Assembly (NCBI GenBank): GCA_003194525.1
Contig: NBIV01000274.1
Coordinates: forward strand, 1-64,000
Origin: Gracilariopsis chorda
Lineage: Eukaryota > Rhodophyta > Florideophyceae > Gracilariales > Gracilariaceae
DNA length: 64,000 nt
Reading direction: 5' to 3'
The notes beneath the pieces were generated by a model. That model saw only the letters and a list, made by a program, of their open reading frames with translations. It was not told the DNA's origin and did not search any database. The position numbers were made by a program, and so were the translations under genes. The first letter of the stretch is position 1. Every line of letters begins with the position of its first letter. Below are positions 16,411 to 36,988 of this stretch, piece after piece.

Positions 16411-19400
16411 TTATCCCACTTGGGCAATGCACAGCGTAGCTGGATTTGCGGTACCTGCGCTGCGGTGATATTGGACCACCTTCGAACGAGGGAGGTGTTC
16501 AACGGGTTCCATGGTGTCCCAGCTTGGATCATATCCGTACCAATGGACGAGGTAACTTAGAATGCCTTCCTGATTCCAGGTGTGCCCGACGATTCGGTCA
16601 ATCACACACTCTTGTTTGTATACCTGCCGGCCTTGCCGTGTTATGGTGACCTCGCTTGTCAGAGGTTGCCCGATGGACGGGATATTTTCCCTCAGGGGTG
16701 CATCAGGATGCAACGTGCCGGCTTCGCTCGGAGGATGCGGCGCAGAGTGCGGAATAACATCCCTCAAGAGGGTGTCTTCGTGGAACGGTTGCCATGTACC
16801 ACGGTAATTGGTTCGTACTGCTAGTTTGCGGGGGTCCTCCGTCCCATGTTGACGGTAGTCCGGTCGAACCACGAGCTTGCGGGCATCTTGCCACTTTGGC
16901 AGAGTTGTGGAGGTCACTCCCTGGTGGGGCTTTCCGCGACGCGCGGTGATTGGTGCGGGGCGCAGAATCTCCGTGCTTTCACGTGACTTTCATGGCATGT
17001 GGCTCTGAACCGCCTCCTTGCGTTCCGCCTGCCTTAGCTTGGGCTTTACACTGTCCGGCTGAGCCGTGCACTGCTTTGTTGGCATCCGGTATCCGTCGGT
17101 TACTTCCAGTGCTCCGATGTGTTGCCTCAAACTCCCTGATGGGGCATGGACAGATGGCGCCCTGGGCACCCTGTTCGGGGACTTTGCCTCTAATTGAGGT
17201 GTGATGTCTTCCTCAAGAGGTGCATCATCCAGGACGACCGGTTTAGCCCTGGCGACGAAGCCGGATTTTTCCGAGACGCTCGGTATACTACTGCGATTGG
17301 GCGGAGACTCTGGCACTTCTATCTCCGAAGTTCGGACAACATTCCCGTTATGAACGGTTCTCAAGTCTGGGGCTGTAGAGCCAGGGACTTGAGTTGCAAG
17401 ATGTGTATTCCTGCCTTCCTCCCTCAAGAGCGTCTTTTCACTTCCCAGCGTTGCTGGTTTTCTACGCCGTGCTTTGCCTGCTACCAGCGGTGTGGATGGT
17501 GCTGAGGAATCCGTTTTGGCGGGAAATTCCGTCGACGACGGTTCTGCGACTACACCTTGGTGAGGGGTCTGCGAAACGATATCGCTATCCTGATTCAGGG
17601 AATTGCCCTGGTTCAGGGGTACGGACTGCGATGTCGGTCCACTCTCCCGTATCATACGGTGTAACTGCGTCGTTCCGGAACCCTTTGTTGGGGATTGCAA
17701 GGCTTCATCGACCTTCCGTGTTTCACGGCTCAAATCCCGTTGCGACAGTAATAAATTTCCAGCGTGGCGATAGGTCCCCTCCCCCTCCTTATACGGAGCA
17801 AGGGGAGTAATAGTAGGATATCCCGCATGGCGGGTGTTAATGCGCGCCGAAGGGGCGGTAGCGTTAGGAGTAGAGAAATGTCCGTTTGGACCTGAACGAT
17901 CCGGCCGAGCCAGGGGTTCCGACAAAGTCAGTAAATCTGAGAGGCCCCAAGTAGGGTGTGGTAGAGTATTCGGTCTATTAAATCCCAGGGTTTCCAGCGT
18001 TGCTGAGTCCGTAGAGACGGGTTTCCCTTTTTCCAGGACGACCTCAGACGAGGGAGGAGGGGCAGGTACAACACGATCGGAGGAAATCCGCTCGTTTTTC
18101 TTGCCCATTTCCACTACGATAGTGTCGGAGTTAACGGATACCACTCTAAACGGTCCATCCGCCACAGGCAAAAGCTTGTGACGGTTCTCCCGTCCCCAGT
18201 TATAATATTTCTTTCGTATAAATACGTAGGTATTAACTCGTATGCGCGGAGCATTATCTCGTAAACGAGCGTCGAAATCCCACTTGTACGCGGCTTGCGC
18301 GCGTTCCATAGACTTCCGCGCTGCGGGGACCGGTTTAGCAAGCCATTGCTTCCATTCCTGGCGGTAGTGACCCACAGATGGGAAATTTTCCAAGGTGGCT
18401 TGGGATCCTAACGCCACAGGCGGGGGTGAACGAGATAGAACCCATTCGAACGGTGAAACTCCGGTAGTCCGGTGAACTTGTGTTTTGTATGGAACTGTTA
18501 AAGCATCTGCATACAAGTCCCAGGTTTGGGTTGATAAGCAACGTAGGAACGGAGAGAGGCCAACAAAGTCCGGTCGAACGGTTCGACTTGCCCATTACAC
18601 TGGGGATGGTAGGTAGTCGTGAAAAGGTTCTTCACGTCCAAGATGCGACAAACATCCTGGAATAACTTGGACGCAAACTGCCGTCCGTTATCGGAGAGCA
18701 CCTCCACAGGAGGACCGTAGACAAAAATCCAGTGCGTTACCAGAGCCTGGGCCACCGTGAAAGCGGTTATCCTCCGAAGAGGGACACAAGCATTGAAAAG
18801 CGATTGGTGATCACAAGTAAGAACTTGTTGTATCTCTTTGTAGTGAGGAGAGGTCCGAGAATATTGATTGCGATAAACTCGAGTAGCGCTCCAGCAGGGA
18901 ATAACTTCATTTTATTCGCGTTCCTGTGGAGCTTCACCCGGTTCTTCCAGCACTCGGTACAAAACCGCACAGTTGCGTAGCAATCAACCGCCATGGTGGG
19001 CCAGTAAAAAGCCCTTCGCAGGGTGAGGTAGAGCTTTCTCCCACCTACATGGCCACCGAGCTTCACATAGTGCGAGAGATGTAACACCCGCGACTGCAAG
19101 GAATGAGGTACCACAATCTGTGGGCGAGCTTCGACCAACCGAACGAGGTAGCCTTTATCGTTCACCTCGAACGGGAGGTCTTCGCCACCGTTTAAACGGA
19201 CACGAATCCTCATACAGAAGGGGTCACCGAATTGTTCTCGGATCAATTCCTTCGGTGAAACCGGTACAAAACTTCCTGGTAAGGGGTTCTCAGGGGTCTT
19301 GCGGGATGAGAGTAAGTTTGTCAAAGTCAGCATCTTCATCTCAGTCTTCTGGCCATTCCTCGAAATTGCACTCCTGGTCATCCGGTTCTTCAGCCATGAA

Positions 19401-20003
19401 CCATGTAATGTCGTCATCCTCCGTTAGGAGTGCTTCCCCATTTGTGGGTAAATGCAACAAGGCGTCGGCCTGAGTGTTGAGCTCCCCCTTTTTATATATG
19501 ACTTGGAAGTCATATTTCGCAAGGCGGAGTCTCCAGTGCATAAGAGGGCCCGAGGGATCCGATATGTTCATTAACCACCTCAACGAGGAATGACCCGTGT
19601 ATACGGTAAACTGAAATCCCATAAGATAGAGGCGTAGGGTGGAAAGCGCCCACGTGACGGCGAGACAATCTTTCTCCGACACAGAGTAATTCCCCTTGTG
19701 GACATTGGGCGAGCGTGACCAATAACCAATTGGCATTCGGTCCCCCTCTGGAATGGTTTGGAAAAGATCACAATCAAATTGGTAGTCGCTCGAGTCCGTG
19801 TCCACGGAGTACAGGAGTCCCAGTATGGGTAAAGATAAGATAGGTGCTGATGTGACAGCCTCCTTTTAGGATTTAAACGCTTCTCATTGCTCGGGTGTGA
19901 ATTGTCCCAATTGTGGGGTATTTGCTTTGCGTAACAACGCGTTCAACGGTGCCGCGATATCTGAAAAGTTCGGGATAAACCATTGGTAGACGTTGACCAG
20001 CCC
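16411..20003 (-). pseudogene. Pol of the large chromovirus: RNase H, integrase, chromodomain
   Basis: Reading leftward from the DNA-transposon edge: end of RT/connection (VNVYQWFIPNFSDIAAPLNA); RNase H (MPIGYWSRSPNVHKGNYSVS, VYTGHSSLRWLMN); integrase zinc region (HLSHYVKLGGHVG...FCTECWKN); integrase core (LSDNGRQFASKLFQD, TYHPQCNGQVEPFDR); a long linker rich in Ser/Thr/Pro; and a chromodomain at the end (VIDRIVGHTWNQEGILSYLV...WYGYDPSWDTMEP). The chromodomain assigns it to chromoviruses. The region is broken in several places. The remaining half of pol lies on the other side of the transposon at 33053-35015. Confidence 0.85.
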
Positions 20004-20005
20004 TA

Positions 20006-20025
20006 CGTCGGTGTTATCGTTATGC
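20006..20025 (+). repeat. Left terminal inverted repeat
   Basis: Pairs with 33031-33050 at 15 of 20 positions; the consensus begins CGYCGRTGTT. It is directly preceded by a TA target duplication. Confidence 0.75.
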
Positions 20026-20543
20026 AAGTTTGGCATTCAAAAGGCAAAGAATTAAAATGAACGACTAAGGACTCTTCAAACCCTATTTTGAATGAATCAA
20101 ATTTCTCAAAATAATTCCATACATAGCACGGAGCTATTTTGCTTGTTACAGAAGACTAGCAGTGTACTAGACATTTCCGAGTTTCTTTGGAGGTAAAACT
20201 AGCGCCAGACTCCACTAATACCTACCCTCTCAGGTGCACGTGGAATCCAAATCTTACTGGTCCTGAGCGAGTGCCCCTTCAAATAGCAAAATAGAATACA
20301 TAGAATAGATAGAATAGATACATAGCGTTTACATAACCAAATAGCTTTGGCTTTCTATCACCCGTTGCCCGACCTGCTCCCTGCATCGCATGCTCTACCC
20401 CACGCCCTACGAAAAGACGCTCTGCACCACGCGCACCACCTCATCTACGTGCGCCATATATTACGCTCCCAGGTATCCCACTCCACCACCAACCTCCCTT
20501 CTCTGTTTCCAAGCATCCCGTTCTCCGTTCTCCTTCCCCCGCC

Positions 20544-21789
20544 ATGATACCCTGTTGCCATCCCCGTTGCAGCTTCTATGGCCGCACTGCATTCTCTCTC
20601 CAGAGTCACCAACGCAGATGCCCTTATCGACTCACCCCCTATAAACGCCCTTCCTCTTCCGCCAACGCTCCCGTCCAGTTCCCTCCAAGGACCAAGCGAC
20701 GGAGATCCGTTCCAAACCTCTCCACCATTCCTCCTCCCACTCCCTCGCACCGCCCCTCCGACAACGTCCCCCTCGCCGAAGATGAACCCTATCACATCCA
20801 ACAGGCCTCCCTCTCCCTCCAAACACAAGACGCACACCACATGGCAAGTCACGCCCTCCGTTCAGTCTCCTCCTCAAACCCACCTCCCCATACGTCGTCC
20901 CAATCCCCCTCCCCTCTCCTCAACCACCCCCATCTCGAGCAACTCGTCCTCTGCATCTCCTCCATCGCTTCCTCCTTCAGCACACGCAAAGCCTACGAAC
21001 TCATCTCCCTTCTCAATCACCCAGAATTCTCCAAGTCATCGTTCCAGAAATCCATCTCCTCTGCAAAGCAGTGCCTCACACTCCAAGAACACCTCGTCAA
21101 GGGACGTATCAACTCCAGCAGTTTTCCCCCTCTCACAATCTCCGACCAGCACAAATCCTTCTCCGCAACTCTCTTCCAAAAAGACGCCATAGACGTCCTG
21201 AAGCAACAACTCGCTCTCGCACACTTCAAAAACATCTTCTTACAACGCATTTCCCATTCTTCACCTTACTCTTCTTCAACCCCCGCCTTCGCCCATCCTA
21301 TGGCCGCAGCCTTCGGAAACAAAGTCATTCCTGTCTCTAAACAGGCCATCACGCAGTGCCAAATCAATGATATCGTCTGGAACACGCCCGAAACAACCGG
21401 TATGGAATCATTCGTCGGTCTCGTCCAGTTCTACTCCGATACGTCTGTAAACCCACTCAAAGGCTCCTCCATCACCTCCTACCCCCTTCAAATCATTCTT
21501 CTCAACCTCTCCGACGCATTCCACCGAAAGTTTGTCTTCCACAACCTCACCCTACTCGGATAACTCCCAACTTTCTTCTCCCTCTCTTCCTCCCCCGGCG
21601 ACGGATACTCCATCCCACATTCGTCTTCCAACATCCCACGCGAAAAAAATGGCCCTCATTCAGCGTTCCATCTCCGCAATCTTCCGTTCCGAAGGTATCC
21701 ACAGCGCTACCTTCGCTTCTCTACTCCCATTGTAGCTGTAAAACGCGGGTCACCGTCATCGCAACCTTCATTCTCCAATTCTGCATGAT
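20544..21789 (+). pseudogene. C2H2 / KDZ- or Plavaka-like transposase, truncated
   Basis: Begins at an ATG in a CCGCCATG context. Residues 4-26 form a C2H2-type finger (CCHPRCSFYGRTAFSLQSHQ RRC, broken here for length). A Ser/Pro-rich linker with a nuclear signal (PPRTKRRRS) follows, then a helical region (LISLLNHPEFSKSSFQKSIS). Residues ~285-345 read VGLVQFYSDTSVNPLKGSSI...YPLQIILLNLSDAFHRKF and then LLG-LP. That block resembles the first catalytic-aspartate region of Kyakuja-Dileera-Zisupton and Plavaka transposases (xxYSDxTxLxxxGxKxxYPVYxxxGN). One in-frame stop falls after LLG and the frame ends about 75 codons later. The rest of the catalytic domain is absent, since the convergent gene begins there. 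Family assignment is by motif resemblance only. Confidence 0.55.
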
Positions 21790-22652
21790 GTAGTTCTCTC
21801 ACCCTCTCCCACGCCACGCCAAGTGTTTTCTCCACCGCAAACCAAAGATACTTCCCGTACAACTAGAAAGTAACAACTGACTTCTTCCTCTACGCCCCAT
21901 ATCTGTGTCCATTGATGTCAAATCAAATCCGATCCACGCATCCAAACGAGCCAAATGCATCACTGTCCCATCAACGTACTCCATCTTTCCCTCCCTTTCC
22001 GTCCCCACCTCATATCCCATGAATTATTCCAATACTTCCACCGCAGCCCCGTTCTTGAAGTACATGTCCTCTTCACTAAACTCCCTTAGCCGACCAGCTA
22101 CCTGAAATCCAGAATACGTAAGATCTTCGATTGTTCTCATCCTCCAAGAACATAAACTACCGCTCTTCGCCTCCCCATCCCCCTTGAACTTCGTCTTTGC
22201 TTCCTCTAACTGCTTCTTCAACTCAATGTCTAGCCTCGTTCCCTCTCGCGGTCTCACACGTCTGGCGATCAAGTCATATCCAAGCAACGAAAGCATTTTG
22301 TCTGGTGCCGCACGCTTCCGAATCCCAATCACATCACTCAAATTCTGCTTCATACTTTGCCTCACACACCTGTCTGCAACGATAAAAACCTATAAAAACT
22401 CTCTATGCACATCAACTACATACTTCCTACGCCCTCTCAAGCCATTTTAACCTTCAGATCCCTTTCTCTCCCCTCTTCCCACCTTCATCCATTCCCGTAA
22501 GCTATCTATCAATATATTCTTCTTGCTCATCTCTTCTCTCTTCCTCTTCAGTTCCTCTTGCATCAGCTTCAGTGACATATTTAGGCTGCAGTCGTCCCCT
22601 TTGATCTGGCAGAGTTCTGCCCTCAATATATTGACCCTCTCAACTAACGAAG

Positions 22653-22767
22653 ATCAAGAAATCACACCGATGTCGTCATTTCCTGCATCTCCCAAAACAT
22701 TGACAGGCACTGCCTGTCAATTTTTTGGGAGATGCAGGAAATGAAGACATCGGTGTGATTTCTTGAT
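22653..22767. repeat. Loop-free 115 bp palindrome (P1)
   Basis: Two 57 bp arms are symmetric about C22710, with only two mismatches and no loop (centre GACAGGCA-C-TGCCTGTC). It lies inside the region of the methyltransferase-SET gene and is one base away from a second palindrome. Confidence 0.9.
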
Positions 22768-22768
22768 G

Positions 22769-22867
22769 ATGAATTGTTCATTGATCGCCAAGTGAACCTG
22801 CTGACGAGCGAAGCCTGGCAGGGTTCGCTCGTCAGCAGGTTCACTTGGCGACCAATGAACAATTCAT
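22769..22867. repeat. Loop-free 99 bp palindrome (P2)
   Basis: Two 49 bp arms are symmetric about G22818, with about two mismatches. The outer ends read ATGAATTGTTCATTG. Its sequence is unrelated to P1, and the two abut with one base between them. Confidence 0.9.
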
Positions 22868-25800
22868 TTTCTCTCTCGCATGCCTTCCAGAGTCTGCGGC
22901 GTTCTGCTTCCTATATCACTTTCCAAGTTTTCAGCCAGTTGCACCTTTCGCTTCCGCACGACTGTGCTTGTGCGGTCTCCGCTTTTCGATGCTTCCTGTA
23001 TTCCATCCGTCGCTCTGACCACTTCCTCCACTTCTCGCGTTTCATTTAAATTAGAGCGGTGTCCCACTACTTCGTTTATCATATCTCTCGTCCATCTCTC
23101 CTTCAGAATGTGATCCTCTTCGTCCCTATCACTGTGTTCCAAAGAGACATTTACCTCTCCTACATCTCGGATTCCACTTGGGGCCCCACCTCTTTTCAGC
23201 GCACCTGCCTCCTCTATTTGTTTCTTTCCGGGCATATCTTCATCCTTATTTCGGTCTTCGACCGGCGCATTTCCTTTTCACCCTCCCTGATCTGTTACCT
23301 CTTCCGTTCTCTGAACAACCAACCCTTTTTAACCCTCCACTCTACCACCCGACCTAGGCATAGATCGCTGTCCCCGAACCGAATCTCTCCCACCTGCTAT
23401 ATGCGCATGGGCATCAGCCTTCAAATTCTCACTCGTCGTGCGGACACTCGTCGTGCGCTCGGATCCGACGTTCTTTGACCCACCTCTTCCCCCTCTCTTC
23501 CAAGCACCTTCTCCTGACCTCCTCCCCGATAATCCGCTCCTGGGAACACATGATTTCGCTTTTGTTCCTCTCGCGGTTCGCTCCTCAATAGCCTTCCGCC
23601 GCGTCTTAGCCGCACTCGCCGCACTACCCGTTCCTGGGCCTCGCTTCTTTCCCTTTGGCGCGATTCTTGGAGTCAAAACTCTTGCGAAAGTTGCTGATGA
23701 CGCTCTGGGTTGGCGCACGCCGTTGTTTTCCGGGAAAATCTCGCCACCCGATGCGCACAAAAATCTTTGCTTTTTGTGAAATCTTGAAAATACAGTCATC
23801 GATGGTACCGAAAATGGACGTTTCTGTGTCCGATCTATATCGCTTTGTATCTTCTATCCCTACTGAAAGGTAATATTGTCCTAAGTTAGGACTATACATC
23901 CGTTCACATAATAAACGACATCCTTTAGCCAAGCTGTGGAGAAAGGTTTATAACAACAAACTAATCAATGACTATCGTTCCATCCTCCACATTCAAATGG
24001 GTTTGTTAGTCAGAAACATCACCCTATCTGGCGAAGAGTTCCTCTCCTTGCCTTATGTCAGCTGTAGCCTCCATCTTAATAAGTTTGTAGTCCGATATTC
24101 CCCCTGGTGTTCGTTCCACTCCCAGTGTCCGTTTCATTCGCACATTAGCCTCCCTTTTTTTACAAGGCCATCCACCATGGAATCTAACTGTTTATCCCCC
24201 TCCACGTACTTTGGATCGTTGATATACCCCGCAATACAAAAAGGGGCAGGAACCACCGATAAAATGGGGTTTGGTTGTTTTCCATGCCAATTCGTCAGCT
24301 GTTTTCGATGCGGAAGTGATTGGAACTGTTCACCGTAGACTTCTATCCCCACCGCATACTTCCGGAAGCGATCCTTCGTCACACCCATGACTCCCTCCCC
24401 GTAGGCCTTGTGCACTTCTTTCCGATTCGAAAGGTCATGATAAACCAACGTCCCGTAGAAATAGCACACTATCTCGCCTGCAGCAATTCGAAGAGTTGCA
24501 AACACTCCAACAACAGCCTTTTCGTGACGAATAGTAGACTTGCCCACTCGCAACCCATATTGCACAGCCTCCATTTCCAATAGAGACTTTATGTTCTCCA
24601 GATTCATTCTTCCCTGCAGCCCCCTCGGCCATCTATCCATAGCTTTCTTCCTTCCCAACTTCCCTAGAATTTCACTTTGCCACAAAGTGGAGAGAAAGTC
24701 GACAAGGTGTGGGGGAAGAATTTGGTACGGTGGAAATCCGTCGACAGCCCTCCATAACACGGTGTGCCTGCTTCTTCCCATTGGGAATGGAGAGGAAACA
24801 CAATGGGTCATCTTTCAAAGCTCCTGGCTCTTCTCAATATCCATGTGTCCTTCCCGTATTATGGAAGCGAAGCGAACAATAGCGGCATGCCTGGCGTGTT
24901 CAAAGCAAGCTTTGTCCGGTTCACACCTCACAAACTTCTGATTCTTGGGCAGTTCCATGCACGACATCGCTGTCGAGAACGTTCCGGCAAACATGTCGAC
25001 CATGAGGTCTCCTGGCTGACTGAACCTGCAAATCAGCTCTTTCAACAGTCCCCTACACTTCTGTTCCGGTCGCACCCTCTTCCTCGTATACTTCCCATTC
25101 GGGTTTTTCACAGACCACATGAGCATCTCACTATTCGACATAGGCGGCACCTGATCCATGGTTGCATGATACGCTGGGTATCTTGAAGCAACATAATTGA
25201 AGTTCTCATAGTTGAACATCCAGTGCTGTTGTGCATAAGGAACTCCAGAACGAACAGAATGTACAGCGTATTCTGTCGTCTGGTGCGACCGGCAACTTCT
25301 TCTCCCAACGTTACCCGTCGTATTACCTAGAGACCATACGAAATGGAGGGGCTGTTCGTCGACGACGAAGGAGTAACGCTTCGTATAAGAGTCATCCATG
25401 TAGGTAACGTTCCGTAGCACATCCCGCCACAACGGTACCTGATCCCATGAGCGGAACTGTATAATATGTCTACCAGGACATAGAAGCTTTGACGACCTCC
25501 TCGCTGACCTGCTCATGCCCTTCTCGGTCATAATATCGTGCTCGCTGTTCTCCAAACGATGCTCAGAACGAGTGCCATATGATGGATCGGAAAGCAGGAA
25601 CTGTACCCTTCCTTCAATAGATACCTCGCTTTCGCCAGACTTGTTGTCGTCACCTTCGATGAGATTTTCGAACTTGCAGTTGTGGAGACGGAATTTGCGG
25701 GACATCTCCTTCTCACAATACTTGTAAGCTATCAAATCATCCAAAGTCGTAGGGTACGGTGGTGCACGAATCCCCGTGCCTTCGACACCATACGATAAGT

Positions 25801-26993
25801 TCTGCGACAAAGCTGTTGTCTGCAGTCCTTCAGTGGCCTTTGGTGCAGTAACACGTTCCGCAGTACCACGTTCCGCTTCCTCTACCATCTCTATCTCTTC
25901 CACTTCTTCCAACTCACCCTGATCACCACTTTCCACACGCTCAGCACGAGATTCACTAAATTTCTCAAACCGCAGAGGGAAAAGTCTCGTTCTCGTGATG
26001 ATGAACCTTTTGAGGGCATCCCATTTGCTGGGAGCATAGATGTCGAACAGTTTCTCTTGTATCACCACATTAGAAAGGTCACCAAGATATTATTTGGCAC
26101 AAAGGCGAGGCGCTGTATCCACTGGGTCCGGCAGATTCCATGCCCATTTGGTAACGTTTTCTTCTACGGTGGTGACGTCCTTCTTCTCCACAAACTGTTT
26201 GAAACAATCTTTGTGTTGGAAGCCCATGGAGCGTTGTACGATATCGCTGAAGACTACACTGATATAGTCCAGTCGAATGTAAGGCAAGATCATAAACGCA
26301 ACGTTTGGAAACCCAAAGAATTGGGCGAGACAATCCCAAGCCCTGGTGATCAGCTGCACACCATACCCGACTCTCTGACTCTGGGTCATGTCCGACAAAC
26401 CCACTTTCGAGAGCTTCTTAGCTGCCATGCCCCTTTTCCTCTTCATGCCACTTCCTTTCTTATCCACGGCAATCTGTTGCACCATAGACAACCCAATGAC
26501 CATTTCAAAGTCGGTGCAAAGATCTGTGTGGAAAGCGGAAGCTTTCTTGGTTGCTCCCAGAAGACAGGACTTGGAAAAGACAGATAGCAACACGTTACGA
26601 GGAATTCCTTTAAGCCCTTCCCTTTTACAATAAACCTTCCAAAAGTCCCTTACATGCCTGTCTTCTTCACGGTCCTTTACGTCCACCACTCTTGCCATAA
26701 GATAGAGTTGACGTGGTAGGCCTCCGAGAGACATGTTACGGAGCTCGGAGTCCTAATACGAGATGTAATCCGGTCTGATGAGAGTGAGAAACATTTTCTT
26801 GGCAGAGTCATGAACGTTGCAACTTTGTACCGCGAACTCCACAAAGTCGGTGTGCTTCAAACTTCTCGGCTCATCCATATTTTGCCTTGTCGCTGCGTAG
26901 TCATCACAAACTGTAAGATAAGCATCAATAAGCTCTTCTCCGGTTCCGTGCATCTTGAATGAACCCATTTCCTTCGGATTATGTTTCTCTTCG

Positions 26994-27152
26994 TTTTGGG
27001 TCCAGGACCGTGGTCCGAGGTGTCATGGTGCTCCATCGCGAACACGATGGAGCACCAGGCATGAATTTTAATTAAAATTTCGCGTCCTGGCGCTTTATCA
27101 TGTTCGCGATGGAGCACCACGACACCTCCGACCATGGTCCTCGACCAAAAAA
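26994..27152. repeat. Inverted repeat in the divergent promoter (P4)
   Basis: Arms of about 51 bp (26994-27044 and 27101-27151, about six mismatches) flank a 56 bp AT-rich core containing AATTTTAATTAAAATT. The left arm also forms its own 13 bp hairpin (TGGTGCTCCATCG / CGATGGAGCACCA). It fills most of the gap between the divergent start codons at 26968 (-) and 27359 (+). It may be a small MITE-like insertion or a native control element. Confidence 0.8.
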
Positions 27153-27358
27153 TTATCAAATGCTTTTTGCAATGCAAGTAATTGGGAGAGGAATTGCAGG
27201 GATGCTACGATGACGACGGATGGATGTCATGAAACGTCTTGAAAACGGTATATAGTGCTTACGTCCATCTCTTTGGAACCAAGCATACGTGATCACGGGA
27301 GCATTCGACGTCAGCGGGTGCCAAGAAAAAGCAAGCGCGACCTTTGAAGTACTCAGCC

Positions 27359-30300
27359 ATGGATTCCACTGGGAAGAAGATAAACGCGCCATCACGGAAA
27401 CGGACTCCGAGGAAGCCTGTTTCGCCGAAGAGACGTGTTATCGACATGCCGACCACGCGAGGCAAAGCGAAGAGCCGGGGCGTCACCCGAACTGCCAGCC
27501 ACTCTGAATCATCAATTGGGGGCAATAAGGGTCAGGTGCTTAAGGGCGATGCGGAGGTTAATCTGTTCGTACGAGTTGGGAGTAGTGATGCGAAGATGAA
27601 GGTAGGAGAGGCGAAATTGCGCGGTGTGGGGGTTGCTGGGGGGCCGGGGACGAGACTCTGTCGTTCTCTACACAACCATCCCCTGTCCTCTACGCAGAAA
27701 CCTGGAGAGGACTTGGTGGTTATCATTAAGACAAATATTTCGTCACACCAAGATGAGAAGTACCCTTATGTTCTTGGGGGTCCCGAGGAACCGCCCGCAA
27801 CTTTGAAGGAGATGGTTTCAGCGGGTTTATATGCATGGGACACTGCGATGATGAGTGTCAAAAATGAAGGCGGAGAGGGGAATGAGTCGGTTCCACCGCA
27901 GTAAGGAGCAAATGTGAAGACTGTCCACAGACGTACAGCTTCCAGGACCACTGCAAGACAAGTCAAGCGCCTTCCCGCTGTTGCCGGTACACCATCAAGC
28001 ATTTTGGTGACCAAAGCGCCGGTGAAGAGCCTTGAGAGCGGTGGATAGGCTCCGGTGAAAACCCGTCAGAGCGGTGTAGGAACATCAGGTGCTCTCGCGG
28101 GCGGCGCTGGAAACCGAGGAGGCCCTATTATCGGAGCAAGCTCCGATGATGACGTCATAGAGGTGTCTGTACTCTCCAGGAACGATCTTGATCCGGAGGA
28201 GAGGGATTTATATGATGACGGTGATGCTGTTCCTTTGGAAGAGGTGGATAACAGTTTGGGGGTCTTAGACATCAATCGAGATGATTATGACCAGCACAAT
28301 CGCGTAATCGATATCCACAACATTCGATTTCCAAAGAACATGGTTCGTTCGAAGAATGACAAACATCTTCGAGATACTTCGAAAAAACTGAGGAAATTCG
28401 GATGGCGCTCTTCTCTTGGGTCGATTGCGGTGGCCCTGTTGGAGGATGTGCCGGTTCGTGACGCTATTGATGCAAGTGGGCGTTTGATTGTTCCTGTGGT
28501 TTTGGTGGAAGGCTTCTATCGAGTGATTGTTCTACTGGAACTCGAGCAGGATGGTGCGAGATGGGCACGGATTACTGCTGGTTTGAACGTCACGCTTTGG
28601 GAACGGAACGACGGCCGGAGAATGACATTGAATGAAGTGTTGTGGCTGGGGAAGACGTTGAATGATTTGAGCTCCAATGTTCTGGTGATGTCCTTCGCAG
28701 ATAAGATTCGCACTGCTGTTTCGTTTATTCTTAATGGCGTAGAGCAGGATGGGTATGAGTTGTCGAAGCTTAAACCAAGCCAAATCACGGGGGTGTTGTG
28801 GAGCAGTGAGACGAAGGGTAAAGAAGGGAGCATACGTCATTTCAATCGCCATTCTGCTCTTGCTCTGAAGCTTGCGCGTAATCCCGGTAGGTTAGAGTTC
28901 TTCGATGTGGTGTGGCTGGAGACGCCTCAAATTGGAATCACTCATGTGTCTAGTGATATTCTGCTTGGAATGTCAGGGGATAAACTTCGTTTTACTATCC
29001 ACTGTCTACAGGTGCATGTTTGAGTGAGGTCGGTGGCCACTGTGAAGACGGGACCGTTTGAGGATTTCCGAAAGTACTTCTTCGACTGCGCTTCTAGAAC
29101 TTATGACATTTGCAGTGAGCTGGGGAGTTCCATGAAGGAGAAAAAGAATGTACAGGAAGTGATGAATACCACGGTTACCATCGGCGATTCTGACCAGACT
29201 GTGTCAAAGCATATCATATTTCGTCTGGGGAAGTGGTATACGAAAGGGAAACGCAGTTCACTGGAGTCCAGAGTGATTAATAAGGTGAAAGAGGTTCGTA
29301 GGACGTTCTCCAGCGCTTTGCAGGGCATGCAGGGACAGGATGCTACTGCTGCTGCTCCCTCTGCGGCCGATGTGGACGTGATCGAGTTGCTTGGTCTGAA
29401 TGAGGAAGCTGCTCAGGAGCCTCCAAACGCTGACCAGGAGGCTCGAAGAAGTAAGTGAATATCAAAAAAGCGTAAAGTGGAGGTCCTGGACGAAGATGAA
29501 GATGAAGAGTCAGTTGACTTTGAGCCACCGGTGAAGAGGCAGAGACGATCGAATCGTAAGCCGACTGCACCTGGTGTGAAGCGACCTGGCTTTGGTATCT
29601 CGCAGGAGGTAGTGGAGGTGCTGCATAGTACGGAAAAGAGAGATTTAAAGAGGTGGTTGACAGCAGAGGAGATCATTGTGCTCGAGTCAAGCGAGGATGA
29701 AGCTCAGGAGGACTTTGTGGATGATGAGGAGGACGAGGCAGAGGAGCAGCAAACCGCAGGCAGCTTTGACGATAAGAATCCTGACAAGCTTCCAGCTGCC
29801 TTAAGTACGCCAGGAGAGCTGGCTATGGGAGCGGACATGTCTTGGGTGGACCAGGTGTATTCATTGCCGAGTGAGTGGCCTGCAAGCGAAAATGCAGTGA
29901 AGCATTCCGATTTATGGATGCAGAGGATAAATCTGAGGAAGCACCATTGGGTAGAGTGCCTATCACCTGATGACTTCCGAATGGTTCATCATGCTGTGTA
30001 CTGGCGTGCGTCGCGCAACATGCACAAAGAGATGGGTACTACGACAGGTGCAGTGCTGGGCGTGAAGATGCCGTCATCAGAAACGGCATCGAATGAAGAG
30101 GAAGCGTTATGGATGGCCGCTTTTGAGAGAGAGGACTTGACTCGTGTTTATTTTGCGAAGAAGAGAGTGGAGCTGTCGGAGAGAGGGTTTTGTGTGCTGG
30201 AGAATTTCGGGACAGATGAAGGCATAGCGAGTGAGGCTTCGAAGAGGGGACTGCAAATGGACGAAAATGTTATAGGAGAACTGATGGAATTCTTCGAACG

Positions 30301-31234
30301 CGACTTTGTTTCGCAACCAGATCTCACGAACGAAGCGAATCGTGTTTTCTAGATTATGATCATCAATGAAGGAGGGGTAAAGGATGTTAAGAATGGTATC
30401 AAGGCGGTGGGGCATTTCATCACAACCAAAAGAGGGATTGCGGACAGAATTGAGGAGCTTGAAAACGGTACGGTTCTTGCTCGAAAGAGAGCCATGTTGG
30501 ATGCAAGGCTCGGTCAAATTGCAGCGGCTCTCGGGTTGTCTGAAGGTGGAACTATGTATGCCCCTCACACGGGTGGCCGTATCCTTTGTACTGGAGAGGA
30601 TTGTCCGAGGCAGGTGCTACACAGGGATTTCAGTGGTTTGACGGAGAATGACAGGATGAGAAATGTGAGCCCGGGGTATTTTGCAACGGCATCGGGACTG
30701 GATGCGTTCATGATTTGGGTTTGTGAACGGTCACATACTCTAACAATGACACGGGGTAACTTGAAAGAGCTTTCGGCTTCTATGATGGTTCGGAAGTTCA
30801 GAGTTCCACCGTTTTCTGTGTTCATTGGAAGAGGGGATGTCATTAATGCTGGGGCTGGGTACAATGATGCAATAGCGAAAGGCTATTGCATGAGATACCA
30901 TATGTACTTTTTACCTGAGGGATACAATCTCCCGGATGCGTTGCATAGGCAAAGCAGTTTTTGCCCTCCCTTTTTTAATGATGAAGAGGACCGTGGCGAT
31001 TTATGTGAGGTGGGAGGAGGGGAAGAGGAGCGGGGAGATGAAGCTGACGATAGAGATGTAGTTATGCAATAAGCCGAAGGTGAGAACCCGTCAGATGAGG
31101 AGGACGATGAGAATATACTGAAACCAGCGGAAATAAACACTGATGAAGATTATGAACAGGAGGATGACGATGAGGGTGAAATGGTTCCTAAAGGAGCAGA
31201 GGGTCTGATAGGTGAGGACGATGAAAGCGATTGA
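27359..31234 (+). pseudogene. ParB-like / 2OG-Fe(II) dioxygenase-like fusion
   Basis: A single frame of about 1291 codons starts at ATG 27359 with a basic N-terminus (RKRTPRKPVSPKRR). It contains six internal stops and no change of frame. Residues ~320-450 resemble a ParB domain: IHNIRFPKN..., then VVLVEGFYRVIVLLEL (box II G-x-x-R) and RMTLNEVLWLGKTLNDL. An SV40-like KKRKVE nuclear signal occurs near residue 702 in an acidic linker. Residues ~940-1190 look like a double-stranded beta-helix oxygenase: SERGFCVLENFG, then VLHRDFSGL (H-x-D), PPFSVFIGRGDVINAGAGYN and MRYHMYFLPEG. In related algal proteins as I recall them the distal ligand is a His (HAGAG); here it is Asn. The tail is very acidic. 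Pairing with a methyltransferase suggests demethylation or base hydroxylation, but the substrate is unknown. Confidence 0.65.
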
Positions 31235-31887
31235 TATTGATAAGTAAACTAGTGATATACGTTTGTTAAATCTGATGATTGCTTTTTGATCTTTATAGTG
31301 AATGTTTATAGTGAATGGGAGAGGTTTCCTACGATGGGGATTACTTTTTATGCGGCTTCATTCGAATGATGCGTAATAATGAAGAGATGATGTCTACAAA
31401 GATTTCGCTTTGTTCTATTCCATAAAGAAAGGTCTACAAGTATGAGAAGAAACTTGGGATGGGTGTATTGGAGGGGAGAATGAAGGGGCAGCTCATATGA
31501 AACACGAATGGATGTAAAATTGAGTATGGGATTATGCATGAGAATTGAAGGTGATTGTACGGATGTGAAGGATCCCGTTGTTATAGCCAAATACCACGAT
31601 TGTCCATTCTGTTGATATAGTAAGTACTGGTTCTTTTCATACATGAATGCATTGTGGCGTGCTTGATGTATGAAGAAGAGTGAAGAGGGTGAAGGCATTA
31701 TCGTGTAGAGGTTCAAAATATTGTTTTCTGTGTTGGGAAGGACAAGGGGTGAGCAAATGAGAAGATGATAAGCTGTACATTTAAGCGGTGACAAAGTTGG
31801 TTCAAGTGAAGAGGTGGGACATTCATTATCGACTTTTGAAAATTCATTCACGAATCTTGAACATTCATTCACGACTCTTGAAGATTC
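31235..31887. other. Spacer between the dioxygenase and coiled-coil genes
   Basis: No gene is supported; the minus-strand frame over 31348-31872 has no domain and is probably chance. It includes the 21 bp tandem repeat at 31821-31884. Confidence 0.5.
31821..31884 (+). repeat. Three imperfect 21 bp tandem units
   Basis: Units of the form ATTCATTCACGACTCTTGAA repeat three times, followed by a partial fourth, ending directly at the ATG of the coiled-coil gene. They could be binding sites in its promoter or for the transposase. No function is demonstrable from sequence. Confidence 0.7.
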
Positions 31888-32574
31888 ATGTCATTTGAGA
31901 ACATCCACACGCACCATGACTACTATTTGCAATTTTCGGTCAGTGAGCTTTGGGTTGGGACGATGATGGGAGGGGATGGTGGGGAGGGAGGTGCGGGCGA
32001 GGGTGGTCGAGGAGGAGGGGTAGGGGGAGGTGGAGGGAGGCGAATGGATGGGTTCTACCACGATGTGAAGGAACTATTGAGGAGCGATTGGGGAGGGATT
32101 AAGAAGCGTTTGGATGAGTGTATTGAGGAGGTTGTAGTGGAGTTGGGAGGGATGGTTCTGAGTGCGTCGGAGGAAGGAGTGCCGATGGGTGCTGTGGCTG
32201 AGTTGCGCGGGAGGGTGGGGGAGGCAGGGGTGTGGGCAGAGCAGCACGTCGATGGGGTTGTGGCGTGTGTGGGAGAGGATCTGGGGAGGCTGTGGAAGGA
32301 GAATGAGGAGTTTCGAGGACGGATTATGGAGTTGGAGAAGCTGCTTTTACTGGTGGACAGGGCTGTGTATCTAGTCGAGGATATGCGGAACAAGATGTAT
32401 GGAGGTAGAAGGGAGGGTGGGGTGGGAGGTGTTGTCGGGAGTGGGTCTCCGGTTACTCCTGGAGGTAGAGGGGTCGTGAAAAGGAGGTTGGAGGAGAAGG
32501 ACGAAGAAGGATTGGAGGTCAAGAGTCGGTTGAAGAGGAGGCATGGAAAGAGGGAAGAGGGAGAAGAAGGCTAG
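31888..32574 (+). CDS. Small Gly-rich coiled-coil protein, unknown function
   Basis: 228 codons, intact, with ATG at 31888 (an alternative ATG-ATG at 31963 precedes the Gly-rich run). Residues ~30-50 are glycine-rich. Residues ~55-165 are helical with heptad spacing (YHDVKELLRSDWGGIKKRLD; LGRLWKENEEFRGRIMELEK). The C-terminus has two basic clusters (GVVKRRLEE and SRLKRRHGKR) that could be a bipartite nuclear signal. It is the only undamaged gene of the transposon. The composition and size would suit a DNA- or chromatin-bound accessory or oligomerisation factor, but no family was recognised. The opposite strand is also open (155 codons, Ser/Pro-rich), which is expected from its base composition. 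Confidence 0.6.
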   Translation: MSFENIHTHHDYYLQFSVSELWVGTMMGGDGGEGGAGEGGRGGGVGGGGGRRMDGFYHDVKELLRSDWGGIKKRLDECIEEVVVELGGMVLSASEEGVPMGAVAELRGRVGEAGVWAEQHVDGVVACVGEDLGRLWKENEEFRGRIMELEKLLLLVDRAVYLVEDMRNKMYGGRREGGVGGVVGSGSPVTPGGRGVVKRRLEEKDEEGLEVKSRLKRRHGKREEGEEG

Positions 32575-32772
32575 TGATGTTTAGGAGTGTCGTTGAGGCT
32601 GTTAGGACGACGGAATGGGTGGTATTGGAATCTGATGCGCGGTCCGTCGGGTATGTGAGAACGGAGAGAGCTGCCAAGATGAGTTCTTGAGGATGAGTTG
32701 GAAGTCAAACTAGGGCAGTATGAAGTTTGAAATTCAAAAGATGGAAATAAAAATGTTAGTTTTGGTTGGGTG

Positions 32773-32815
32773 CTCGAAATGGCGCTGGCCGCTGCGCGGC
32801 GAGCGCCATTTCGAG
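32773..32815. repeat. 14 bp-arm GC-rich hairpin near the right end
   Basis: CTCGAAATGGCGCT (32773-32786) pairs perfectly with AGCGCCATTTCGAG (32802-32815), and the 15-base loop can pair further (GCCGC/GCGGC). It lies 200 bp after the coiled-coil gene and may serve as its 3' structure or as a subterminal transposon site. Confidence 0.7.
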
Positions 32816-33030
32816 ATCTGTATCTAGCTTTTAGTGGAGAATGAACTTGTTCCAAACTTGCAACTAGCGATGCGCAATGCAGGTGAGGCAAGGCTATGTA
32901 AGATATGAAAGTGCGAATTCCAAAAAATTCTTTTTTTTACTTGGCAAGCGCCAGAAACTAGCATAATCTATCATTTTCGTAGTATTTTGAGCTTTTACCT
33001 AAGAAACTTGCAACCTTGCACCTCTATCTA

Positions 33031-33050
33031 GCATTCCGAGAACATCGGCG
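33031..33050 (-). repeat. Right terminal inverted repeat
   Basis: Reads inward as CGCCGATGTTCTCGGAATGC and pairs with 20006-20025. It is followed by the TA target duplication. Confidence 0.75.
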
Positions 33051-33052
33051 TA

Positions 33053-35015
33053 AAAAGGAGCGGAGTTCCGTTTGAGTGCGAAGTTCCTTAGCCCCAACGA
33101 GGGACTTTACTTGGGCCTTCTCGATCATTAACCGTCCCGGACTGATGATATGTCCCAGATACTTGACAGTATCTGAGAAGAACTCCCACTTCCTCAACTT
33201 GAGGGTAATTCCCGCATCGTGGAGCATGGTCAGAATGTCCCTGACATGGGTGAGAGGGTCTTCCAAATTATTGGAGAAGATGACAATATCATCCAAGTAG
33301 ATCAGGCACCTCCGCCACTTGAAGCGGTTCAATAGAATATCTATTGCACGCTGAAAGGTGGCGGGAGCGTTGATCAAACCAAAAGGCATCCGCTTGAAGC
33401 GGTACAATCCTGCGTGGCAGGTGAACGCGGTCTTATCGCGATCCTTCTGTTTAGCAGGGACCTGCCAATAACCCCAATTGGCGTCCAAAGCCGTGAAAAC
33501 GGTAGCGTCTCCAAGGGAGTCGATGCACTCGTCCATAAGAGGGATAGGATATGTGTACCTAACAGCCACAGCATTGAGCCGGCGATAGTCGACACAGAAC
33601 CCCCAGTTTCCGTCGGCCTTCAAAAACAGTACAACTGGGGATGCCCAGGGTTATTGAGCGGGCTCTATCACACCTGCGCGGAGCATTTTGTCCACCTGGG
33701 ACTGCTTCTCTTCCCGAGCGTTCGGTACTGGCCTGTAAGGGGGTTGTGCCATCGGACGTGCACCCGGTAACAAATCTATCCGGTGTTCCGTAGCATTACT
33801 CTCGCCGAGCGAGCTATCCCAGATTGTGGTAAATTCCCGTAGCATTGCACGGAGTTTGTCGCGGTGTGACTGCGGCACATGGCCGAGGTCTATACCTTCG
33901 AGTGCCTTTATGGGGTCCATTCGGTCAGAAAGCGCTGTAACATGGTCCTGTGATACAGGTGTGGCCATCGGTTCCGAGTTATCCGGGGTGTTCGACGCTA
34001 AAATAACGGTTTCCTCTCCCTTCTTTGACGATAGTTCGTCAGTGGTGGGGGTTGCTTTCTCAGAAGAGGCGGCAATTCGGAGAACATCGGCGGTCGTCAT
34101 CTTCGTCGGGAGCATCCCAAGGGGGTGTGGAGTGACGCTTTCCATTACTTGTTTCTTTACCAGATACTGGAGGCCTTGGCTAAGATTGGCAACCAGTATC
34201 CGGAAAGGAGCATCAGGGGTAACGTGAACAATTCCGTTCGCCAGCGCGAGCTGGTATTTATCGTATAACGAGGACAGAGGTTGAATAACCCAAAGACCGT
34301 GTTGACGGCAATTGACTTGCACCCAGACTTGGGACTCAGGCGGTATAGAACCCGAGGCTGCTACTCGAAGTTTGATGGACTCGCGAGACGCGGCCGGTGG
34401 TTCCTGCGCAGCAGGTAGTGGTACTTGCTTCTGCGAAGCACGTTTCAGCGGGCGACGGACGATCGGGACTGACGATCCGTGGTCGAGTTCCACACGCCTA
34501 AGGCAGGGCCTGATTGCTTCGAAAAATATGTCGCAGTAATCACATCCCAGTATGACTGGAGCGGTTAATGACCGACAAACAATAAAGTCGAGCTTCACCA
34601 CGGAGGTGCCCAACCGCACGACTAAATCGACGGTACCCACCGTTTTTAACGGATTATTGTTCGCATTTGCGACGTCGGGAACCGTTTCGGAACGGATACG
34701 AGACCATATCTGCGGGGGTAGCAATGATTCCACGATGAAGTTGGGGCCTGCACCTGTGTCCAGGACTGTTAGAAATCTAACCATAAAATGGGTGTCAAGG
34801 CCAAGGTCGGCGTAAACCTTGTAGTTGCGCTTGGCCATGACAAAGACTCTATCCGGGATCCGGGGGTTTTTACTCCGTATCCACGGGCGACGCAGCACAG
34901 AAAGGTGTGCAGAGTGCGCGTCTGTGGTGTACTTCCTTGAAAGGATTTTCACCGGAGAGCGAGGCGGCGACGCCTCGGGCGTCAACAACCTCATCTCTGA
35001 GGATGCCTCTCCCAA
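33053..35015 (-). pseudogene. Protease - reverse transcriptase part of the large chromovirus pol
   Basis: Read leftward from 35015: a retropepsin-like segment (VLDTGAGPNFIVESLLPP and VILGCDYCDIF), a spacer, and the RT N-terminus with LLPGARPMAQPPYRPVP. RT fingers/palm follow: FCVDYRRLN, ALDANWGYWQVP, FGLINAPATFQRA and the catalytic YLDDIVIFS (near 33.29 kb), then the thumb (YLGHIISPGRLMIEKAQVKS). The region is broken in about one place and stops at the right edge of the DNA transposon; the rest of pol continues on the transposon's far side. Protease separates directly from gag with an 18-base gap and a different frame. Confidence 0.85.
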
Positions 35016-35032
35016 AGGGGAGACTCCCTTAA

Positions 35033-36988
35033 TTAGTTTTCCTGGGAGGTTCCCGCCGTAGGCAGTAGTAGAGGATACTCGACAACGAGAGCTTCGATCC
35101 GGGGGCCGGGGTTTTTATCCGCATAAGCGGTGGTTGCATCGGACGTTGTCGCAACTTCCCGATTCGGGTTAATTGAAGCTAGCCGTGCACGCCGGATATG
35201 TGGAAAGGCATGCGAGAAGTCCGTTTTAGCACGGAGGTAGGAAGCCATCGGAACGGAACGTTTCTCCTCTGGAGTGAGGGCCTCGTAATTTGCCACCACC
35301 TTGGCCATATCTTTCAGTGAGCAAAGACACTGAGGGGATGTATGGCCATGGGTGTAGCACAGGTGGCAAATTAGAGCCAACACAGAGACGTGCCGGTTAA
35401 TATCCCGAGCATCATAGAAGAGTACCGCCGGTCGGGTGTCACTCCATCCAGGCCGTTGATAACGGGATTGGCCGTTCATAAATGGGACTTGTGGCGGCTG
35501 AACGCGATTGTTCCCCACGCACAATACGGGGTGGTCTTGCGCCGTTTCGAACGTGTCCTCCGTCGTTGACGGTAAGTCCGTGGTTGCTATAGACACACCA
35601 TCTCCCTGTGCAAAATGCACGGTGTCGTATCCCTGTTGGGGGGTTCTATCCGCAAAACGCGAGGGCGATGAGAAGTCACTCTCCAGCACCAACGCCTTGG
35701 CGGGCTTAGACCGACGATTTGGAGTTCTTGCACGAAGTGCTTCCCCTTCCACTCGAGCATGTTGAACAAGCTCGAGGTAGGTGACCCTCCGCTTGTCCTC
35801 GCGGTAACGAGTGACAAGACTCCGGATTGCCGGGTCAAGGCCATCGATGAACATGGTACAACGTTCCCCTGCGGGGTATACATTCCCACAATGGTGGAAG
35901 GCCTTGTTAAAGTACACCGAGTAATCAGTTTCACTCTCGCTTGAGCGCTGACAAGTATCTGGCAAAGCGAGAATTGCCCCCTGAATGGCGGTATTGGTGG
36001 CATAGGAGTGCAATAAATATCGCACCGCCTCCGGCCAGCAGGTTACTCCTCCCTCTGAGGCATGAGATGATCCTCTGACAGAGCTGTACTGGTCCTCTGC
36101 CACTCCCCGTAAGAAATACGGTAATGCCAAATAGGATTGTCCCTCGTTCATTCCGAGGATATCGGCTTCCGCTACAAAGCGGGAAAGAAAGTCCAACACC
36201 ATAATTGGGTATTCTCCAGTAAAATACTGGTTACGCAATGAGAGTTGCATACGTTTTATGCAATCTTTCACCTTCCCTGTGCCACGGGGTGTACGTCCTA
36301 AAGAGGAAACTTCGAGCCGGTAGTACCGGTAGGACAATAGTTTCCGATACAACGGGTTCGTCGGTTTTAATTCCCTGAAGCCAGGGTGTCTTCTCCACTT
36401 GCTGCGGGTCCGATTTCCACCTTGGGTGGTGGATGACTGCTTAGAGCGGGAAGAACGGCCTCGTTTCTCGTCATCCGAATCGGAGTCCAAAGAACTAGAA
36501 CCATCTGACCCGTTTCGGGATGAATCCGATGATGTCGTAGAATTAGAATCCAAGTGATATTGTTTGTATTTTCGCTTATAGCGGCGCTTCTTTCTTCCGG
36601 CATGCTGGTCGTGGTGTGACGCAGCTGGTGCCGGATCATCCGGGGACGGTTTATCCATGAGAATAAACTGCTCTAACGTCTCCAGACGGGCACGAATTCG
36701 ATCAAATCTAGAGTTAACTCCTTCTATGAAGGTGGCGGGTTGCCCTAAACTCTCTATCATAGAATTGAAATCGGAACGTAAGATACGGAGATCCTCTGCG
36801 ACCACCTTTGTAGGGGTGTCCATCACCACCTCACGGAGGGTTTGTAATTCCCCGACAAGGGTGTTGTGGGCGGTCCACAAAGCGTCAACCTGAGATTCCA
36901 GGGAATTCCCCTGGGGGGTGGTATCGCCCGTCAGACGGGGTTCAGGTGCGGCGGCGGCCACGGCCGGAGCCGGTTGAGCACCATCCAC
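35033..36988 (-). CDS. Gag of the large chromovirus
   Basis: 651 codons, open. The N-terminus has a coiled-coil-like segment (LESQVDALWTAHNTLVGELQ). A Ser/Asp-rich and basic low-complexity stretch follows (KKRRYKRKYKQY; SSLDSDSDDEKRGRS). The Gag core comes next (FLSRFVAEADILGMNEGQSY, LRGVAEDQYSSVR, YSVYFNKAFHHCGNVYPAGE, MFIDGLDPAIRSLV). A Cys/His knuckle-like CHLCYTHGHTSPQC near residue 555 would bind nucleic acid. The gene starts about 320 bases inside the 5' LTR and ends 18 bases before pol. Confidence 0.8.
   Translation of the reverse strand: MDGAQPAPAVAAAAPEPRLTGDTTPQGNSLESQVDALWTAHNTLVGELQTLREVVMDTPTKVVAEDLRILRSDFNSMIESLGQPATFIEGVNSRFDRIRARLETLEQFILMDKPSPDDPAPAASHHDQHAGRKKRRYKRKYKQYHLDSNSTTSSDSSRNGSDGSSSLDSDSDDEKRGRSSRSKQSSTTQGGNRTRSKWRRHPGFRELKPTNPLYRKLLSYRYYRLEVSSLGRTPRGTGKVKDCIKRMQLSLRNQYFTGEYPIMVLDFLSRFVAEADILGMNEGQSYLALPYFLRGVAEDQYSSVRGSSHASEGGVTCWPEAVRYLLHSYATNTAIQGAILALPDTCQRSSESETDYSVYFNKAFHHCGNVYPAGERCTMFIDGLDPAIRSLVTRYREDKRRVTYLELVQHARVEGEALRARTPNRRSKPAKALVLESDFSSPSRFADRTPQQGYDTVHFAQGDGVSIATTDLPSTTEDTFETAQDHPVLCVGNNRVQPPQVPFMNGQSRYQRPGWSDTRPAVLFYDARDINRHVSVLALICHLCYTHGHTSPQCLCSLKDMAKVVANYEALTPEEKRSVPMASYLRAKTDFSHAFPHIRRARLASINPNREVATTSDATTAYADKNPGPRIEALVVEYPLLLPTAGTSQEN

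Follow-up and report, generated by a model that had tools for sequence, protein, structure and literature searches.

The window, a stretch of 64,000 nt from contig NBIV01000274.1 of the red alga Gracilariopsis chorda, contains at positions 20006–33050 a single DNA transposon of 13,045 bp. It is a decayed copy of an element that carries, besides a Plavaka transposase gene, a gene for a DNA methyltransferase fused to a SET domain and a gene for a protein with a ParB-like box and an oxygenase-like motif pattern. With moderate confidence we interpret this element as a Plavaka transposon with its own chromatin-marking set, which would mark its own DNA and histones and in this way counter silencing by the host; its chemistries, targets and anti-silencing purpose are what we infer. 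By transposon type alone, the element would be taken as fungal and its source as a mushroom-type fungus. In the genome (91.3 Mb, 1,081 contigs), 40 loci each were scored for the left end (of 248 candidates), the right end (of 145) and the methyltransferase gene (of 119), the window copy included, and the same ends were present in all ten long copies that were fetched, which measured 14,590–17,619 bp.

The element is bounded by imperfect terminal inverted repeats of 23 bp, in which 17 positions match in the window copy and 21 in copy C114 (counted by eye). The target-site duplication (TSD) comprises 2 bp and is not always TA; a strict match was present in the window copy and in eight of the ten fetched copies (9/11 in total), and no match was found in C10 and C135. 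Insertion occurred inside the pol gene of a Ty3/gypsy element, and when the flanks are joined with one TA, the reverse transcriptase-RNase H frame is restored and runs without a stop for 239 aa over the junction. The longer transposase frame of copy C7 matched the Plavaka profile PF18759 with 64.7 bits (cut-off 26.3), whereas the window's own remnant, which comprises the 5′ part only, gave no match to this profile. Together with the TSD, which falls within the 2–3 bp of Plavaka, this assigns the transposon to the Plavaka group of CACTA-like elements with predicted cut-and-paste transposition. The termini, CGTCG..CGACG, differ from those of the PlavakaA and PlavakaB subgroups (TGT..ACA or CATCA..TGATG), and the element is placed in Plavaka without a subgroup. 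An earlier first-pass annotation of this stretch had named the KDZ class, which is ruled out by the Plavaka profile match, by a TSD of 2 bp instead of 8 bp (the length stated for Zisupton in portions of PMC12730594) and by the lack of a match to any KDZ transposase profile in the searches of the window and of copy C7. The same annotation was right in proposing a mobile element, and the several copies with common boundaries that it had named as support were found, with a common gene order; it was also right in its TA duplication and terminal repeats, although their length had to be corrected from 20 bp to 23 imperfect bp; the decay of the window copy had escaped it.

The minus-strand gene corresponds to one protein of ~1,060 aa that consists of an N-terminal domain without known identity, an N6/N4 methyltransferase domain and a SET domain. 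In the window, the methyltransferase profile PF01555 was recovered with 34.7 bits (cut-off 26.7), and SET (PF00856) stayed with 12.5 bits under its cut-off of 22.4. The unbroken 1,065-aa gene at locus L047 (contig C53) reached 66.8 bits for PF01555 and 23.3 bits for SET, with all 105 SET positions covered. P0001, taken from a contig in the database, shares 94% identity with L047, and P0002–P0006 are more distant. Both cut-offs were passed by P0002, P0005 and P0006 (SET scores of 28.3, 26.6 and 22.6 bits, respectively); SET remained under the cut-off in L024 (18.2) and P0001 (20.5). Since P0006, a database protein of 1,190 aa that is rich in Gly, Ala and Asp, is among those passing both, the fusion may extend beyond the group of this genome. 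With P0002 as query, 49 loci were scored among 352 candidates, each as one match continuous from the methyltransferase into SET, and 25 of them lack internal stops; the open frame of 1,065 aa is common to five loci (C332, C745, C53, C48 and C241). The PF01555 score above cut-off and the DPPY and FxG motifs place the enzyme in the N6_N4 DNA methyltransferase class. DPPY, which we take to be of the adenine-N6 type, is retained in 16 of 18 window-family copies and in P0001–P0006. Seven solved structures were matched, among them the adenine methyltransferases DpnA, MboIIA and RsrI, with only 50–75 residues covered. Because of the DPPY motif and these nearest solved enzymes, adenine N6 is the expected product and the domain is most likely a bacterial-type adenine-N6 writer, while the fused protein has the apparent capacity for methylation of DNA as well as of histones.

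The arrangement of the genes is kept across the genome, in which we obtained 150 methyltransferase matches (all above cut-off, from 175 candidates), 114 Plavaka matches (110 above cut-off) and 44 scored ParB-oxygenase loci (of 296 candidates). A Plavaka match lies within 15 kb of 73 of the 150 methyltransferase matches; in 71 of these 73 cases the two are on opposite strands, with the Plavaka match 3′ of the methyltransferase. Within the same distance, 30 of the 44 ParB-oxygenase loci have a methyltransferase match, divergent in all 30 cases, and 17 have a Plavaka match, each time on the same strand (17/17). Random scatter would be expected to yield ~5.6 methyltransferase-Plavaka pairs and ~2.2 pairs of ParB-oxygenase and methyltransferase. 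The copies, the reconstructed empty site and this fixed geometry rule out a chance assembly of unrelated genes.

The plus-strand gene encodes a D-G-x-H-R box and, further on, the motifs LHTDF, GDVFHAG and RYHMY. The H-x-D, GDVFHAG and RYHMY motifs are spaced by 75–78 and 16 residues in L048, L045 and P0007, and L048 and L045, with 43% identity over 446 residues, agree at the H-x-D, H and R positions. Such a spacing is typical of the 2-oxoglutarate iron oxygenase superfamily, and with the residues and spacing of the HxD..H..R pattern conserved, the C-terminal part is probably an oxygenase of this type. A PE-type TET/JBP enzyme was ruled out, as L045, L048 and P0007 have HxD in place of the HxE hallmark. 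In copy C1, a frame of 1,062 aa is open, yet Q replaces the first His; among 11 copies compared, the first His and the distal His are each kept in nine. Frames of 1,417 aa in C204 and C550 have no stop in the matched stretches. No further relatives of the protein (alignment A2) were present among 7,999 candidates, and seven phage records that matched the oxygenase part weakly (E 2–8, coverage 15–17%) were taken as chance. Viral contigs gave ten pattern matches for P0002 and two for P0007, with no relative among them. The first-pass annotation had predicted methyltransferase and SET in one protein, which the profile searches confirm in the relatives and in L047, with SET above cut-off in L047, P0002, P0005 and P0006 and the methyltransferase recovered in the window itself; the ParB-like box and the H-x-D/H/R pattern it had described in the second protein are present, but recovery of an oxygenase profile failed.

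In the window copy, none of the main genes is intact; they are disrupted by deletions, frame losses and in-frame stops. Compared with the long copies, its transposase gene lacks 2.3 kb after 21681, and 155 nt are missing around 25946 in the methyltransferase gene, where the frame is lost. In addition, DPPY is changed to DPSY and the distal His of GDVFHAG to Asn. As its main genes are broken, this copy cannot perform the functions proposed here and, to judge from its sequence, is dead, with unbroken copies of the methyltransferase gene elsewhere in the same genome. The 11 copies compared deviate by 2.8–4.5% from the majority, with 4,227 differences private to one copy and 623 common to two or more over the whole element, and 823 private differences versus 24 in three or more copies in the ParB-oxygenase gene. 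For the counts in this gene and in the five gene pieces analysed, the alignments were first cleared of duplicate rows, of rows in which gaps exceeded 60% and of columns covered by fewer than six copies, and variants shared by exactly two copies were set aside. In all five gene pieces, the majority codons are free of stops, and variants in three or more copies formed a small class with uneven ratios (1.23, 1.08, 3.55, 0.76 and 2.0 in the five pieces). We infer that an intact source gave rise to a burst of copies, which then decayed. CpG transitions occurred at 0.0448 per site versus 0.0194 for G or C positions outside CpG, a 2.3-fold difference that was determined within the copies only, without a control region, and is compatible with host 5-methylcytosine on the copies.

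A second family was sampled through L047 and L048 (contig C31), which presumably belong together because the Plavaka matches of both contigs have 77.7 bits and a frame of 1,160 aa. This family looks young, since 14 methyltransferase matches have one and the same score of 71.1 bits. Between the window and the second family, the ratio of nonsynonymous to synonymous substitution rates (dN/dS) was 0.15–0.20 in the methyltransferase pieces, 0.16 in SET, 0.09–0.16 in the ParB portion and 0.12 in the oxygenase portion; these values are rough because dS is at least 0.9, but they are still far below 1 and indicate purifying selection between the families on all four modules tested.

In the mechanism that we propose, the fusion protein would methylate DNA at adenine N6 and, via its SET domain, nearby nucleosomes together. 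The second protein would bind the DNA of the element through its ParB-like box, and its H-x-D/H/R part would act by oxidation to remove or alter a host silencing mark, whereby writer and partner would sustain expression and mobility of the element. Several observations weigh against this mechanism. P0003 and P0004 pass the methyltransferase cut-off and have neither a SET match nor the C-terminal Tyr, which is also lost in 6 of 18 window-family copies. Of the 150 methyltransferase matches, 77 are without a Plavaka match inside 15 kb, and a methyltransferase match is missing at this range from 14 of the 44 ParB-oxygenase loci; some of these unpaired cases may be due to contig ends, deletions or candidates that were not scored. 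L048, in which the ParB-oxygenase gene of the second family was read, has one in-frame stop. Searches of Pfam, NCBIfam, PHROGs and PADLOC with the second protein from the window and its relatives gave no match to ParB or oxygenase profiles, and PDB sequence searches with it returned nothing below E 1. Single-copy changes in the window family gave ratios of 0.82–1.09 over the five gene pieces, which corresponds to neutral decay and means that these copies are inactive now.

Since no library names the second protein, ParB (a G-x-x-R box, with no match by profile) and oxygenase (motifs and spacing) are motif-level statements. This agrees with the possibility that the second protein is no eraser, that its C-terminal part has another fold or modifies proteins and that the element only writes marks. 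We consider this unlikely, since L048 and L045 have retained the H-x-D, H and R positions at the degree of divergence given above and at the spacing characteristic of the superfamily. The neutral decay of the window-family copies would likewise fit captured genes that are mere passengers without use to the transposon; the low dN/dS between the families, the gene order fixed over dozens of loci, with 73 pairs where random scatter predicts a handful, and the 1,065-aa frame open in five loci all speak against such cargo and make it highly improbable. Dam methylation times or directs excision for some bacterial elements, and the marks could similarly serve transposition itself, with the ParB-like protein organising the ends. 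A bacterial-type methyltransferase and a ParB-like box that adjoin the transposase in fixed order would suit this role, whereas it is not evident what a SET domain would contribute to it, and in the two copies inspected no repeated end motif was conspicuous apart from the terminal repeats and a few short ones; the analysis of end motifs and palindromic 4-mers yielded nothing decisive. We regard a role in transposition as doubtful.

Self-marking against host silencing is thus the interpretation that we retain, and if it is correct, a single protein could let transposons set marks on DNA as well as on histones. The interpretation is open to experiment because five loci have the open 1,065-aa frame. 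Only tentatively would we extend it to a clade of DNA transposons that builds a private epigenome, in which one enzyme writes a base mark and a histone mark together and a partner locates the element by its ParB-like domain and rewrites or erases DNA marks. In that case, adenine methylation in this genome, with its 150 methyltransferase matches, could be largely a transposon property.

Table. Coordinates of the element in the window and of its insertion site.
Feature	Position	Strand	Remark
Ty3/gypsy pol gene split by the element	19341-20003 and 33053-35114
TSD, left copy (TA)	20004..20005	.
Left terminal inverted repeat, 23 bp	20006..20028	+	recurs with point differences in the 10 fetched copies
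Plavaka transposase gene, 5′ part	20544..21684	+	~2.3 kb lost after 21681
Decayed gene flanked by those for transposase and methyltransferase, with a basic, coiled-coil region	21680..23853 (limits approximate)	-	minus-strand frames in longer copies; no Pfam match above cut-off
Methyltransferase-SET fusion gene, broken	24024..27022	-	~1,060 aa in relatives
SET domain, limits from motifs	24027..24511	-	below cut-off here, above in relatives
N6/N4 DNA methyltransferase domain	24902..25591	-	PF01555; DPSY 25574-25591, DMFAGT 24977-24997
155-nt deletion site	25944..25949	-	bases retained in other copies compared
ParB-like/oxygenase-like gene, broken	27293..31234	+	1,062-aa core frame open in C1; N-terminal piece 27293-27904 attached by eye from L045
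ParB-like D-G-x-H-R box	28505..28522	+	VEGFYR here
H-x-D pair	30620..30628	+	HRD here
GDVFHAG box	30833..30853	+	GDVINAG here, distal His lost
Small coiled-coil-like frame	31882..32574	+	no Pfam match
Right terminal inverted repeat, 23 bp	33028..33050	-
TSD, right copy (TA)	33051..33052	.

Some further features of the copies are recorded here. Three of the ten long copies (C35, C46 and C63) have 1.5 kb extra near window position 31945 and differ from the rest in their left repeat, and so seem to form a subfamily of their own; in C46 the extra segment contains an open frame of 400 aa without a Pfam match. A palindrome of 43 nt (32773-32815) lies 235 bp from the right end and recurs as a match on the reverse strand in 39 of the 40 loci that were scored, among them the window. 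At 22653-22867, two adjacent snap-back inverted duplications have arms of 57 and 49 nt that are 96% complementary and 1 nt apart. The 57-nt arm occurs once in each of the ten long copies and the 49-nt arm once in each of the six where it was found, and the duplications resemble a scar left in the window copy by repair or replication. In C114, GATC occurs 37 times versus 67.6 expected and CATG 61 times versus 93.5 (simple Markov model), which for one copy could mean nothing.

Transposons with genes for chromatin or DNA modification have been described before, and we found no report of a methyltransferase-SET fusion on Plavaka in the portions of the open-licence literature covered. Such a fusion may bear on the low and disputed N6-methyladenine signals of Dikarya, as presented in parts of PMC13297926. 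Portions of Kojima 2025 (PMC12730594) describe TET genes on Plavaka, KDZ and other transposons, fungal elements included, which resemble the present element in the Plavaka transposase, the short TSD, a dioxygenase-like passenger and a proposed escape from silencing. In contrast, PE-type TET, the Plavaka-borne type, has HxE where the present element has HxD, and those transposons have the termini CATCA..TGATG or TGT..ACA. Neither ParB nor adenine occurs as a word in the main text of PMC12730594, and the portions covered contain no methyltransferase-SET fusion. SET genes are carried by the oomycete HarbingerS and MuDR transposons treated in the same portions, but these have other transposases, and no fusion to a DNA methyltransferase is mentioned there. 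Retrotransposons with a C5-cytosine methyltransferase (sections of PMC5890265) similarly are mobile elements with their own DNA methyltransferase, whereas an enzyme of the N6/N4 class is carried here by a DNA transposon. According to parts of PMC12477816, the giant algal transposon Sola1-1_Ec32 of Ectocarpus combines ParB-like and N4/N6 methyltransferase parts in one protein of 1,104 aa, and similar proteins are reported from green and red algae. This element shares with ours a ParB-like part and a bacterial-type methyltransferase on a large DNA transposon as well as the idea of self-marking; it differs in that our methyltransferase is joined to SET, our ParB-like part belongs to one protein with an oxygenase-like part, and the carrier is a Plavaka instead of a Sola element.

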